From Spirochaetota bacterium (lineage in GTDB: Bacteria > Spirochaetota > UBA4802 > UBA5550): a DNA stretch of 42,996 bases. The DNA lies in assembly GCA_025457915.1 (NCBI GenBank), contig JALOTL010000025.1:1-42996 (forward strand), read 5' to 3'. Of this stretch, positions 37,913 to 42,996 are shown one piece after another. The position numbers were made by a program, and so were the translations under genes. Position 1 is the first letter of the stretch. Every line of letters begins with the position of its first letter. The notes beneath the pieces were generated by a model. That model was not told the origin of the DNA and ran no database searches. It saw only the letters and a list, made by a program, of their open reading frames with translations.

Positions 37913-38055
37913 CCGCGCGCCCCCTGCGCCTTATTGCATCGCTGCATGATCATGATCGCGATAAATCGATCCTCAGTTAAAATTAATGTATTGAAAATAT
38001 CGAGGCTTTTATTATTATTACTAAAAATTTGTTCAACAATAACTCGCGCGGTCAT

Positions 38056-39180
38056 ATGAGCGAAACCAAATTCGAACTCGCAATAAACAGGGGAAAAAGC
38101 TACGAACACCTGTTTCTGGGGAAAAAGGACTTTCTCGCGGAAACCTCGAAGCTTTTCAAGGAACCGAAAAAGATTTTCCTCGGCATGGGGAACTTCCTGG
38201 AGCTCGGGGACTACCACAATCTCCTGGACTCGGTGCTTTTTTTCGAGGAAGGCATCGAGCTGGAAAAAATCCTGGATAAAAACAACAGGAGGGTCGCCGC
38301 AGAGGGGAACATCCCGTTCTCGTTTTTCAAGCTTGCGGTTTACTTCCCGGATTTCCTCCTTAAAGACGTGCCGGCCTCGTGCCTTTCCATCATAGGTAAA
38401 AAATCAAGGCTTGCCCCGGGAGCGGAAATTTTTTTCCAGCACATAAAAAAATACAGCCCGCTCGTCCTCACGGCCATACCCTACAGCATCGCGATAGAGT
38501 TCATCAAAAGGCTCGGGCTCGGCAAGGAAAACCTCTTCGCCACGGACTACAAGGTCAAGAAAGACAACAGCCAGCGCGTGATCTTCACCGGCGGCATCAA
38601 CAGGTTCGTTTCCGGGGACAGGAAAAGCATCGAGATAGAAAAATGCATGATTGACAACAGCCTGACCGAAAACGAGGTGGCCTATATAGGCAGCGGGGAG
38701 GCCGGAATGGCCACATTTTCGAGGATAAGGAACTCGATCGCATTCAATCCCACGATAAACGTAATGCCGGAATCAAGGATCAACGTTTACGGCTCTTCGC
38801 TCGAGTCATTGCTGGTTCTCTTCAATTTCAACGAAGGCCTCAGGCCGTACCTCATGTCGGGAATGATGGATGATTGCCTCCCTTCCCTCGTGGTATATTC
38901 GGAATCCAGGGAAAAGCCGAAGGAACTGATGGAGCTCGAGATGGAACACAGGCGGTACCAGAAGAACATACTCAGCCAGAGGGTCGAACATTCAGGAACC
39001 GGCTTCGATACCGTCCTGAACGACATAAACGTCGAGCTCAAGGGCTCGCCGATCGGCATTGAAAACATACGCGAGATGGTCTATGAGAGGATAAAAAAAC
39101 ACATGGAAAATCCGCAGGAGATAGTCAAGACCATCTACAGCATCGCCAGGGAAAGATACAAGAGCCTGGGAATGGAATGA
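38056..39180 (+). CDS. HAD-superfamily-like protein with degenerate catalytic motifs
   Basis: 374 aa from the ATG at 38056; the frame extends 9 codons further to a TTG, and neither start has a clear ribosome site. The order of elements looks like a large HAD phosphatase: motif II-like LTAIPYSIAIEFIKRLGL near residue 135, a conserved Lys region near 200, and motif III-like AYIGSGEAGMATFSRIRN-SIAFNP near residue 212. The N-terminal motif I, normally DxDGT, appears as FLGMGNFLELGDYH near residue 44 and lacks the nucleophile Asp. Similar proteins occur in methanogens as EhaR. Phosphatase activity is therefore doubtful. The gene is divergent from the radical SAM gene and converges on the AfsA-like gene (9-bp gap). 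Family call is tentative. Confidence 0.6.
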   Translation: MSETKFELAINRGKSYEHLFLGKKDFLAETSKLFKEPKKIFLGMGNFLELGDYHNLLDSVLFFEEGIELEKILDKNNRRVAAEGNIPFSFFKLAVYFPDFLLKDVPASCLSIIGKKSRLAPGAEIFFQHIKKYSPLVLTAIPYSIAIEFIKRLGLGKENLFATDYKVKKDNSQRVIFTGGINRFVSGDRKSIEIEKCMIDNSLTENEVAYIGSGEAGMATFSRIRNSIAFNPTINVMPESRINVYGSSLESLLVLFNFNEGLRPYLMSGMMDDCLPSLVVYSESREKPKELMELEMEHRRYQKNILSQRVEHSGTGFDTVLNDINVELKGSPIGIENIREMVYERIKKHMENPQEIVKTIYSIARERYKSLGME

Positions 39181-39189
39181 AGATGCTTC

Positions 39190-40449
39190 CTACAATATCC
39201 CCCTCTGTTCCCTGGCATGGCAAAGCCTTTTTATTATCTCGCTGATGTTCTTTCCGCCGGCCTCGTCGACCCTGCCGATCACGAAACTCGCCATGCACCT
39301 TTTGCCGCTCTTGCGGTGAATTTTAAGAACGCATGTTCCCCTGACCTCGAAGTGTTTTTCGAGGTTCATTCTGAACTCGAACTCCGAGGCCTTTCCGAAA
39401 TCCACGGGCTCGATGAATTCCACGATGAAATGCTTGGGAGATATGTCGGCGACATTCCCGATCAAGCGTTCTTCGCTCTTAAGATCCTTCAGCATTATCT
39501 CGCACTTCAGGCCCGGGTTGTAATTGAACTTCAGGGCGTCATTCACCTGCTTTTTTATTATAATAGCTTCAAGCGAGTCCATTTTGAATGTCATGCCCGA
39601 GATGCCGATCCCTCCCTTTTCCCTGTGCTCCTGGCAGAAGGACACATTACACGAACACTTGAACCAGTACCCCTCGTCGTTATAGTTGGTTTCCGTCATC
39701 CTCAGCTCCAGCCTTATCGGATAGCTCAGCCAGAGATACTCCCTGAAGGACACGTCCATCCTGTTAAGCGTGAAAAAAATACCGCTGGTGGGCACTTTCC
39801 CGTATATATGTGCGCAGGCGACGAACAACTGGCGCGCGGTTTCAATCATCATCATCCCCGGTATATGATCCAGTTTATGCTCGAAGAAGTATTCATGGTC
39901 CGGATCGACGTGCATGTTCGCGATGAATACGTCCTCCTTGTGCACCTTGTCTATCCTTTCAAAAATTTCCGATATCCTCGCCTTTTCAGCGTCGGTGATG
40001 AAAAGAATTCTTGACTTGAGAATTTTCGCGATCCTCAACTCGTCCAGTTCGTTGAAGACCTTCGAGAGGATGTAATGATCGCCATGCTGATCCATGCTAT
40101 AAAACTGCAGCAGAAACTTCTTGTCGTCTTCCCCCACAGATTCCTCAATGAAAAATTCATTCATGTCCTTGATGGATATATTGACCGGAAGGGTCCTCAG
40201 CACGTAAGAAAATTCCGTCTCCGAACCGATGCCGTAAAGATTCATGTTCTTCTTTATATAGTAATTGAGGATAAATTCTTTTTCTTCCTCTTCAAGAACT
40301 GGAATTATATGTTTTTCGAATATTTTGTCCTCTATTATCCTCGGGATGCTCCTTCTAAGATTATAAATATGAACATTCTCTCTTCTGGTTTTATGAACAT
40401 AGATATTATCCGGAAACTTGATGTTTTCGAAATTGATATACTGGGGCAT
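39190..40449 (-). CDS. AfsA-like hotdog domain fused to a C-terminal PilZ domain
   Basis: 419 aa from MPQYINF; AGGGAGG lies about five bases upstream, so the GTG two codons earlier is rejected. Residues about 165-300 match the A-factor biosynthesis hotdog domain (AfsA): HKEDVFIANMHVDPDHEYFF, then DHIPGMMMIETARQLFVACAH, the family hallmark of DHVPGM…E-ARQ. Residues about 315-395 look like a PilZ domain (KCEIMLKDLKSEERLIGNVADISPKHFIVEF), with DIS at the DxSxxG position but no Gly. AfsA in Streptomyces condenses beta-ketoacyl-ACP with DHAP for a butyrolactone signal. The 160 N-terminal residues are unassigned. A PilZ partner suggests c-di-GMP input; that is inference. Confidence 0.8.
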   Translation of the reverse strand: MPQYINFENIKFPDNIYVHKTRRENVHIYNLRRSIPRIIEDKIFEKHIIPVLEEEEKEFILNYYIKKNMNLYGIGSETEFSYVLRTLPVNISIKDMNEFFIEESVGEDDKKFLLQFYSMDQHGDHYILSKVFNELDELRIAKILKSRILFITDAEKARISEIFERIDKVHKEDVFIANMHVDPDHEYFFEHKLDHIPGMMMIETARQLFVACAHIYGKVPTSGIFFTLNRMDVSFREYLWLSYPIRLELRMTETNYNDEGYWFKCSCNVSFCQEHREKGGIGISGMTFKMDSLEAIIIKKQVNDALKFNYNPGLKCEIMLKDLKSEERLIGNVADISPKHFIVEFIEPVDFGKASEFEFRMNLEKHFEVRGTCVLKIHRKSGKRCMASFVIGRVDEAGGKNISEIIKRLCHAREQRGIL

Positions 40450-40485
40450 AAACACCTCCCTTTGATGTTCCAGGTTTTATAGCAT

Positions 40486-40524: not shown

Positions 40525-40596
40525 GGGCACTCTCAATGTATAAATTGGGATTTTTAAGCGGTTTTATAATGAAAAACCGAATTTATTGAGGTGCCC
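40525..40596. repeat. 72-nt nested hairpin in the divergent intergenic region
   Basis: Four stacked stems: GGGCAC/GTGCCC, CTCAAT/ATTGAG, AAATT/AATTT and CGGTTTT/AAAACCG, 24 base pairs in all with small bulges. The inner hairpin is at 40559-40579. It belongs to neither coding region and lies about 80 bp upstream of the IspH-like promoter. Confidence 0.6.
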
Positions 40597-40677: not shown

Positions 40678-40706
40678 TTGACCTTTGCCCGGAAGGCGTT
40701 TATTAT
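40678..40706 (+). promoter_or_regulatory. Strong promoter of the IspH-like gene
   Basis: TTGACC at 40678-40683, an ideal 17-base spacer and TATTAT at 40701-40706. Transcription would start near 40713, which excludes the ATG at 40719 as a normally translated start and supports ATG 40734 with AGGA seven bases upstream. Confidence 0.7.
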
Positions 40707-40733: not shown

Positions 40734-41630
40734 ATGGCTTTCTTTTATTTCTTTAAAAATGACGGCAGATGCAACTTTGTTAAAAAATATCTCGTCGACG
40801 ATTTCATGAAAATTCTCCAGAAAAAAGACTCTGCTGGCGGGGTAACCTATTATTTGAACCTGGAGTGGAGTTCATCATCGGGCAAAGGGGCCAATACTGA
40901 CTGGCTTGACTCCCTGAATATTAATTACATAAAAAACATCGATGAACTCCCGGCCGGAGGCGGCGTATACGTATCATCATACGACGGAGACCCGGTCTCC
41001 ATAGAAAAACTGAAAAAAGCAGGCGTTCCTGTTTATGAAAGGATATGTCCGTGGGTGCTGGCACTGAGAAGGCAGATAAGCATTACGGGCGCGGATCATC
41101 GCTGTATTATAATGCTGGATAAAGACCATATGGTTTACAATAACTACAGATCAATATTTCCCGAAGACACGATTTTTATCGATGAAATAAATTACCTGGA
41201 AAGGCTTCAGAATCTTCAAAAAGGCATGCCGGTACATTTCATCGTATATTCGACGTTCAGGCCGCAGGACGCCGCAAAAATCACGGATTACTTAGAAAAA
41301 AACTTTCCGCATCCGGATAATATTTACTGGTTAAAGGGAATCTGTTCATGGGTGACAGATTCAGGTGTTTTCGAAGAGATACGGACATCGATAAAAAACG
41401 AAAACTTATCGGAAATATGGGTCATATGCAGCAATGAAAACAACAGGTCCGTAAAATCGCTGATTTCAGCGATAGGGGAAAACGGTTCCGGCCACTTGAT
41501 TTTAAAAGACCCGTCCGACATCCCGGAAAATATTCCGCGTGAAAAAAGGATTGGCGTACTAAAGGCACCGATTCCATACGGCAAAGAGAATGAAATTATT
41601 GAACGCATAAAAAATTTATATTGCAGCTGA
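40734..41630 (+). CDS. Divergent IspH (LytB)-like iron-sulfur protein
   Basis: 298 aa from ATG 40734. I align it by eye to IspH, the reductase making IPP and DMAPP. The three cluster cysteines are kept: Cys13 (DGRCNFV, for GFCAGV), Cys105 (RICPWV, for ATCPLV) and Cys194 (KGICSWV, for ICYAT). His132 (DKDHMVY) and Thr164 (YSTFR) match His124 and the TTLS Thr. Residues lost are His41, His74 (SSYDG instead of SAHG) and catalytic Glu126 (HMV instead of HPE). VYVSSYDGDPVSIEKLKKAGVPVYE and SEIWVICSNENNRSVKSL follow the IspH fold. It is therefore probably a paralogue with a different substrate. It lies between the 72-nt hairpin and the kinase/ATPase gene. Confidence 0.7.
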   Translation: MAFFYFFKNDGRCNFVKKYLVDDFMKILQKKDSAGGVTYYLNLEWSSSSGKGANTDWLDSLNINYIKNIDELPAGGGVYVSSYDGDPVSIEKLKKAGVPVYERICPWVLALRRQISITGADHRCIIMLDKDHMVYNNYRSIFPEDTIFIDEINYLERLQNLQKGMPVHFIVYSTFRPQDAAKITDYLEKNFPHPDNIYWLKGICSWVTDSGVFEEIRTSIKNENLSEIWVICSNENNRSVKSLISAIGENGSGHLILKDPSDIPENIPREKRIGVLKAPIPYGKENEIIERIKNLYCS

Positions 41631-41782: not shown

Positions 41783-42996
41783 ATGATAGAGATAAAGGGG
41801 CTACGCCTTACCGAGAAACTTTACGAAAGCGAAAAGACGCTCGTCTACAGGGCGTTACGGGAATCCGACGGCGCGAAAGTCATCGTCAAAACCAATAAAT
41901 CAGATAATCCGGATCCCGCCGATGTCGGCCGCCTTCAGAATGAATACAATGTCGTATCCGGTTTCAATTCGCGCCGCATAATCAAGTTCCACTCTCTCGT
42001 GGACCTGGGTAACAAAAAAGCCATTATCATGGAAGATGCTGGCGGAATCTCCCTCGATCAATACATGTCCGAGAAAAAATTCCCGCTCCCGGAAATTTTA
42101 AAAATCTCTTCCGAATTATCCGACTGCATCGGCGAAATTCACAGGAACAAGATCGTCCACAACAATATCAACCCATCCAACATTATAATAAATACCGGAA
42201 GCGGGGAAATCAAAATAATTGATTTCGGAATCGCCTCGGATATAGGCAGGGAGATAAGGAGCGCCGTCAGTCCTGAAATCATTGAAGGTTCGCTGGCATA
42301 TGTATCGCCCGAGCAGACCGGCAGGATGAACCGCTCAATCGATTATCGCACGGATTTTTATTCTCTTGGCGTTCTATTTTACAGGCTGTTAACCGGCCGC
42401 CTTCCCTTTGAAACAACGGACGCGATGGAGCTTGTCCATTCGCACATTGCCATCCTGCCCGTGCCGCCCTTCAGGCTCAGGGAAGACATACCCAGGATTT
42501 TTTCAGACATTATCATGAAGCTCCTGGCTAAAAACGCCGAGGAGCGGTACCAGAGCGCGAACGGATTAAAAACCGACCTGGATAAATGCATAGAAAAACT
42601 GGATTCGGCCGGAAAAATAAAAAACTTCGACCTTGGAGCCAGCGATGTGTCGGAAGTGCTCAGGATACCGGAAAAAATATACGGAAGAAAAAACGAGATC
42701 CTCCGCCTTTCCGAATTGTTCTATGAAGTCGCCGGCGGTTCAAAAAAAACAGTACTGATTTCGGGACCGCCGGGAATAGGAAAATCATTCCTCGTCAACG
42801 AAATCCAGAAACCGCTGCTCAGGGAAAGGGGATATTTTATATCCGGTAAATTCGACAGGCTCAAAAGGGACATTCCATACAATTCATTTACACAGGCGCT
42901 CAAGGCCCTGGTAAAACAGATCCTTACGGAAAGCGAGGAGCGGATCAGGATATGGAAAGAGGAACTGAGTGAAAACCTGGGGGAAAACACGAGCAT
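41783..42996 (+). CDS. Serine/threonine kinase-like plus AAA ATPase regulator, 3' truncated by window
   Basis: 404 visible codons, open at the window end. The start is the ATG at 41783, with AGGG six bases upstream (ATG 41777 is possible). Residues 1-275 are a protein-kinase fold: Lys36 (VIVK), IVHNNINPSNIII near 124-135, DFG at 147-149, SLAYVSPEQTGRMN near 170 and DFYSLGVLFY near 191. The catalytic-loop Asp of HRD/HKD is Asn128, so catalysis is doubtful. Residues about 299 onward begin an AAA_16-type ATPase with Walker A SGPPGIGKS (327-335). In known members of this family a TPR-like region, GAF and histidine kinase domains follow. The preceding 150-bp spacer holds a short hairpin at 41674-41694. 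Partner unknown. Confidence 0.85.
   Translation, partial: MIEIKGLRLTEKLYESEKTLVYRALRESDGAKVIVKTNKSDNPDPADVGRLQNEYNVVSGFNSRRIIKFHSLVDLGNKKAIIMEDAGGISLDQYMSEKKFPLPEILKISSELSDCIGEIHRNKIVHNNINPSNIIINTGSGEIKIIDFGIASDIGREIRSAVSPEIIEGSLAYVSPEQTGRMNRSIDYRTDFYSLGVLFYRLLTGRLPFETTDAMELVHSHIAILPVPPFRLREDIPRIFSDIIMKLLAKNAEERYQSANGLKTDLDKCIEKLDSAGKIKNFDLGASDVSEVLRIPEKIYGRKNEILRLSELFYEVAGGSKKTVLISGPPGIGKSFLVNEIQKPLLRERGYFISGKFDRLKRDIPYNSFTQALKALVKQILTESEERIRIWKEELSENLGENTS

Follow-up and report, generated by a model that had tools for sequence, protein, structure and literature searches.

The IspH-like gene of the window (here the whole stretch of 42,996 nucleotides that was analysed) encodes a divergent paralogue of IspH/LytB (4-hydroxy-3-methylbut-2-enyl diphosphate reductase, MEP pathway, EC 1.17.7.4) that keeps the three cluster cysteines, has lost the residues of the substrate site and is linked to AfsA genes in spirochaete genomes. 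We put at about even the chance that the protein is a neofunctionalised [4Fe-4S] oxidoreductase that serves as a tailoring enzyme in an AfsA-dependent cassette for a butyrolactone/butenolide-type signal or small metabolite. The genes concerned are as follows.

39190..40455, minus strand: AfsA-family protein (phosphorylated butenolide synthase-like hotdog), likely start ATG 40449; Pfam AfsA (PF03756) E 1.2e-19; divergent from the IspH-like gene
40734..41630, plus strand: IspH-like paralogue (divergent IspH/LytB homologue), 298 aa, start ATG 40734; identified by Pfam LYTB, HHalign and orthologues in four other genomes
41783..42996, plus strand: N-terminal part of a giant Ser/Thr kinase-AAA sensor protein, cut by the contig end; Pfam Pkinase E 3.6e-35, AAA_16 E 2.4e-22

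The initial annotation had placed the IspH-like open reading frame at 40734–41630, and both the frame and its start were borne out by the orthologues. The five-sequence alignment has a common N-terminus, M-[AS]-x-FYFF-x-x-D-x-x-C, and four of the five orthologues have the same start (M-[AS]-x-FYFF), for which ATG 40734 was preferred over the in-frame upstream ATG 40719. An AGGA motif precedes ATG 40734 and, together with the common N-terminus, marks it as the right start; ATG 40719 and ATG 40809 were both rejected. At first the N-terminal cysteine was taken to lie outside the gene and the counterpart of Cys12 to be lost; the FYFF-x-x-D-x-x-C motif of the orthologues refuted this.

The relationship to IspH is apparent by several methods. 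Against Pfam LYTB the open reading frame scored 33.3 bits (cut-off 24.5; E 3.9e-8), and against TIGR00216 it scored 33.1 bits (E 3.2e-8), far below the equivalog cut-off of 187.85. HHalign comparison of the five paralogues with 39 canonical IspHs gave a colinear, full-length alignment of 279 columns with a probability of 98.9% (E 1.5e-16). All PDB matches found by sequence were LytB/IspH, the best being Plasmodium LytB (E 1.6e-5). A first AlphaFold model, made with three orthologues, was poor (pLDDT 66) and matched only IspH at E <1e-3. A second model was better (pLDDT 79, pTM 0.73) and superposed on IspH structures with Z 17.5–19.0 and rmsd 3.4–4.4 Å over 269–275 residues, the next unrelated fold having Z 6.9; its input alignment contained two canonical IspHs, so its likeness to IspH is partly built in. 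Taken together, the profile, sequence and structure matches make an IspH fold for the modelled protein well supported, with IspH entries the only clear fold matches in the PDB. The profile and fold searches that had been proposed as a check on the paralogue assignment of the initial annotation thus both returned IspH. NadA and Dph2 are likewise three-domain [4Fe-4S] proteins with one cysteine per domain, and their general architecture is like that of the paralogue; Dph2 appeared only as a weak fold match, none being significant, and IspH is the only clear relative.

Residues were mapped by a profile alignment of the five paralogues against the 39 canonical IspHs, using canonical numbering (Cys12 etc.).

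40770..40772, plus strand: Cys13 codon, equivalent of IspH Cys12 (cluster ligand); invariant in the five paralogues and aligned to the invariant canonical Cys12
41046..41048, plus strand: Cys105 codon, equivalent of IspH Cys96 (cluster ligand); invariant in the five paralogues
41127..41129, plus strand: His132 codon, equivalent of IspH His124; invariant in the five paralogues
41343..41345, plus strand: Cys204 codon, equivalent of IspH Cys197 (cluster ligand); invariant in the five paralogues
41427..41429, plus strand: Cys232 codon, an extra cysteine at the canonical Gly221 position; invariant in the five paralogues, Gly in 39 of 39 canonical IspHs

The likeness to IspH therefore covers the whole length of the fold, the three cluster cysteines (C13, C105 and C204, one per domain) and the His124 equivalent (H132); the initial annotation had picked out these cysteines and this histidine. 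That all three cysteines persist in five divergent orthologues speaks for its view that this is a [4Fe-4S] protein on the IspH fold, with the cluster itself predicted. The annotation had also reported that the counterparts of His41, His74 and Glu126 are gone; this holds, and the losses extend to Gln166, Thr167, Ser225, Asn227 and Ser269. Each of these residues is invariant across the 39 canonical IspHs. In the five paralogues, the His41 position is occupied by S, N, K, R or W, His74 is replaced by Y83 and Glu126 by V134 in every member (leaving the proton relay pair half kept, with H132 present), Gln166 by Y, Thr167 by S or A, Ser225 by N or D, Asn227 by S, and Ser269 by P or A. The diphosphate pocket of IspH is formed by His41, His74, His124, Ser225, Ser269, Thr168, Asn227 and Gln166 (PMC8837944); of these, the paralogues keep only His124, in all five, and Thr168, in two.

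The five paralogues share 57 invariant positions, and the new residues conserved among them include Y83, D84, V134, Y172, R176, S239, C232 and tryptophans 45, 107 and 206. Since the replacement residues are themselves mostly conserved, the active site has been rebuilt under selection and has not decayed. The replaced substrate site agrees with the earlier suggestion of a different substrate or a sensor role, which can now be sharpened to a role in an AfsA-type signal or metabolite cassette.

Besides the paralogue there is a canonical IspH. The initial annotation had proposed looking for a second ispH in the genome, and one was found: the genome of the window (G000) has another LYTB match, G000:C38, with 259.9 bits and every canonical residue kept, so the IspH-like gene is not the sole ispH. 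All five genomes that carry the paralogue have a canonical IspH. A 47-sequence tree groups the five paralogues together, on a very long branch and separate from every canonical IspH. The canonical protein G000:C38 (L001 598–2325, minus strand) is itself unusual in being a membrane fusion of about 575 aa with a UbiA-like C-terminal part, the UbiA match lying below the Pfam cut-off. Most genomes of the order have open frames of 550–660 aa at the LYTB match, which suggests the same UbiA-like fusion, and a contig from a viral collection encodes a long IspH protein of similar kind, whose C-terminal part is membrane-like (L069 1049–2683).

The paralogue was found in five of 393 sampled Spirochaetota genomes (G000, G006, G019, G070 and G093), and in three of the 46 genomes of the order. 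Profile scores across the 393 genomes dropped from 334 bits for the orthologues to 42 bits for the next matches; those of the weak matches, at 42 bits and below, that were checked by motif were canonical IspHs, as was the fourth match in the order (G021, 21.9 bits). The orthologues are intact open reading frames from five genera and two orders, with 39–53% identity to the window protein; two of them come from ‘Spirochaetes bacterium’ MAGs, to whose family the genome of the window belongs. A pattern scan of genome contigs with the single IspH-like protein as query gave no matches, and one with a three-row alignment gave only two orthologues that were already known. These scans overlooked the G070 and G093 orthologues, so the lack of matches beyond Spirochaetota is no evidence of absence. 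No paralogue was found in the plasmids and viral contigs searched.

The AfsA homologue beside the IspH-like gene is a protein of about 420 residues (421), with the AfsA hotdog match confined to residues 172–281; it scored 46.8 bits against the ScbA/BarX equivalog, below the cut-off of 200. The C-terminal ∼130 residues of this protein (39190–40455) have no Pfam match, and full-length relatives occur across the phylum. AfsA homologues are present in 15 of the 393 genomes, including all five with the paralogue (hypergeometric 3.9e-8, with shared ancestry ignored), and within the order of 46 genomes the three with AfsA are precisely those with the paralogue. In G000, G006 and G019 the two genes are divergent neighbours. 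In G070 and G093 they are on separate contigs; in G093 both contigs break at the cassette, with the SDR gene running off one, afsA ending the other and the kinase gene adjoining afsA. By the AfsA tree, the association with the IspH-like gene may have arisen once or twice.

In front of the IspH-like gene, the initial annotation had placed a strong promoter.

40678..40706, plus strand: promoter-like TTGACC-17-TATTAT, 10 of 12 consensus positions

A consensus scan of the region gave four promoter-like sites against a mean of 4.9 in shuffles, which is not above chance, and the claim of a strong promoter was not upheld. A hairpin, CGGTTTTATAATGAAAAACCG, lies at 40559–40579 between the divergent afsA-like and ispH-like genes and could be an operator or a terminator.

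All 15 AfsA loci of the phylum were read to compare the cassettes. The giant kinase is encoded downstream of the paralogue or across the afsA gene, and belongs to the cassette in each of the five genomes that carry the paralogue. In the relatives it has about 1745–2150 aa, with Ser/Thr kinase, AAA and GAF domains, and PAS and histidine kinase domains in addition in the G006 copy. The genomes G006, G019, G070 and G093 encode 2 to 12 such proteins, and the best match of the window kinase in each of these four is the cassette kinase. An SDR gene accompanies three of the five IspH-like cassettes (G019, G093 and G070) and was not found in the stretches read around G006 and G000 (for the latter only ∼12 kb upstream, because of the contig end); the cassette is therefore not uniform. 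In G093 a SnoaL-like domain is fused to the paralogue, and in G070 the paralogue has SnoaL-like and FMN-reductase-like genes as neighbours.

Among the other ten AfsA cassettes, eight carry one or two HAD phosphatase-like genes immediately behind afsA, followed by the kinase gene in seven; the eighth (G213) runs off its contig. No HAD phosphatase-like gene was found in the stretches read of the five IspH-like cassettes, and none of the 15 cassettes has both genes, an exclusivity that partly tracks the AfsA lineages. The remaining two cassettes have an MCP gene and an SDR gene in place of the HAD gene, and two HAD cassettes (G082 and G164) also have an SDR.

The window open reading frame 38029–39180 was considered as a cassette HAD and rejected; the HAD profile gave no match, and there was a weak SerB match (E 0.0086). 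It encodes 383 aa, is convergent to the afsA-like gene and has no relative in the other cassettes. Three HAD-like proteins of AfsA cassettes (L088 10234–10926, L089 1732–2418 and L090 8683–9360) have HLDG for the nucleophile motif DxDG and so might not be active phosphatases; other proteins at this position retain DIDG or DFDG. In the two spirochaete genomes with MCP cassettes (L085 7257–11552 and L086 8125–13399), an MCP-type chemoreceptor, the AfsA homologue and the SDR are encoded in a row, one of the cassettes also having a SnoaL-like protein, and the MCP may be a chemotaxis receptor that detects an AfsA-type signal.

In Streptomyces, AfsA-type signals have a TetR-type receptor. The spirochaete cassettes with the paralogue differ in having the giant kinase rather than such a receptor, and the IspH-like Fe-S protein in the place of the phosphatase. 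Their AfsA homologue resembles AfsA/SabA of Streptomyces (A-factor, SAB butenolides) and the PBS domain of gladiostatin. AfsA-type enzymes condense dihydroxyacetone phosphate with β-ketoacyl thioesters to form phosphorylated 2-acyl-3-hydroxymethylbutenolides, and in Streptomyces the phosphatase SabP and the ketoreductase SabD are their partners (PMC7756379); the SAB set SabA, SabP and SabD is paralleled by the spirochaete AfsA homologue, the HAD phosphatase-like protein of the related cassettes and, where there is one, the SDR.

From these parallels a pathway can be proposed. The AfsA homologue would join a β-ketoacyl thioester to dihydroxyacetone phosphate, giving a phosphorylated 2-acyl-3-hydroxymethyl-butenolide in which the phosphate is allylic. 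The IspH-like protein, with electrons from a ferredoxin or flavoprotein, would then reduce this phosphorylated butenolide, most attractively by reductive loss of the allylic (phospho)oxygen to give a 3-methylbutenolide; in the other spirochaete cassettes, the HAD phosphatase-like gene would occupy this step. Where an SDR is present it would reduce the side-chain ketone, and the giant cassette kinase would sense the product. Reductive loss of an allylic oxygen is the reaction of IspH. The Bacillus enzyme can also convert DMAPP to methylbutenes, which takes off an allylic diphosphate reductively, and its H131N and E133Q mutants lose HMBPP reductase activity and still form isoprene (PMC4864966). 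If H131 and E133 are taken, by their spacing, to correspond to H124 and E126 of the E. coli enzyme, these precedents make it chemically reasonable that an IspH-fold protein without Glu126 could act on an allylic phosphate. Recruitment of an IspH-fold enzyme to spirochaete butenolide-type signalling in exactly this form, with a [4Fe-4S] cluster serving to strip the AfsA product reductively of its allylic phosphate or hydroxyl in place of the usual phosphatase, and with the giant Ser/Thr kinase reading the product, is put forward only tentatively. The tailoring-enzyme reading is weakened by the separate contigs of the paralogue and afsA in G070 and G093, by the variable cassette content and by the AfsA score below the equivalog cut-off.

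The chief alternative is that the protein senses redox state or oxygen: the IspH fold would hold the [4Fe-4S] cluster, with C232 perhaps supplying a fourth ligand, and would report to the giant kinase or control the cassette without catalysis. The loss of the IspH substrate residues, the extra invariant cysteine and the constant presence of a sensor kinase all suit such a role, which would be favoured if C232 ligates the fourth iron; a fourth ligand could block the open iron needed in IspH catalysis and so would count against an enzyme. However, many pocket positions are altered yet invariant (Y83, D84, Y172, R176, W107 and W206), as fits a substrate site, the neighbours are biosynthetic (AfsA, SDR, the SnoaL fusion and the FMN-reductase-like protein), and the paralogue alternates with a HAD phosphatase-like gene. 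We regard a sensor as possible though doubtful. It is less likely still that the reshaped pocket acts on an isoprenoid-type allylic diphosphate or another allylic substrate unrelated to the AfsA product, the adjacency to afsA reflecting a shared regulon. The homology to IspH, the retained ligands and His124 equivalent, and the promiscuity of IspH (PMC4864966) are consistent with this, but the diphosphate pocket is reduced to the residues given above and the presence pattern follows AfsA.

Two further accounts are both highly improbable. An ordinary second IspH isozyme making IPP and DMAPP would agree with the LYTB match above the gathering score, but not with a score so far under the IspH equivalog cut-off or with the loss of His41, His74, Glu126, Thr167, Ser225, Asn227 and Ser269 in all five members, given that IspH mutated at E126 is almost inactive (PMC8837944). 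A functionless, decaying duplicate would account for the loss of the parent family's catalytic residues, yet the frame is intact in five genera and two orders at the identities given above, with many invariant positions and conserved partners. The tailoring-enzyme reading is preferred to all of these.

To our knowledge, IspH is generally regarded as a single-purpose enzyme of the MEP pathway. With the paralogue, a known fold gains a new subfamily and a new context, and it is the context that suggests the function of the protein. If this is indeed a conserved subfamily tied to AfsA that has retained the cluster site and remodelled the substrate site, the IspH fold would have a second physiological role. 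The cassette also suggests that Spirochaetota use hormone-like butenolide signals, read by a kinase receptor that is a single protein. PMC7756379 describes the route from the AfsA-derived phosphorylated butenolide to the methylbutenolide as unresolved; reduction by an IspH-type protein would offer a testable answer to how methylbutenolides may be formed in these spirochaetes.
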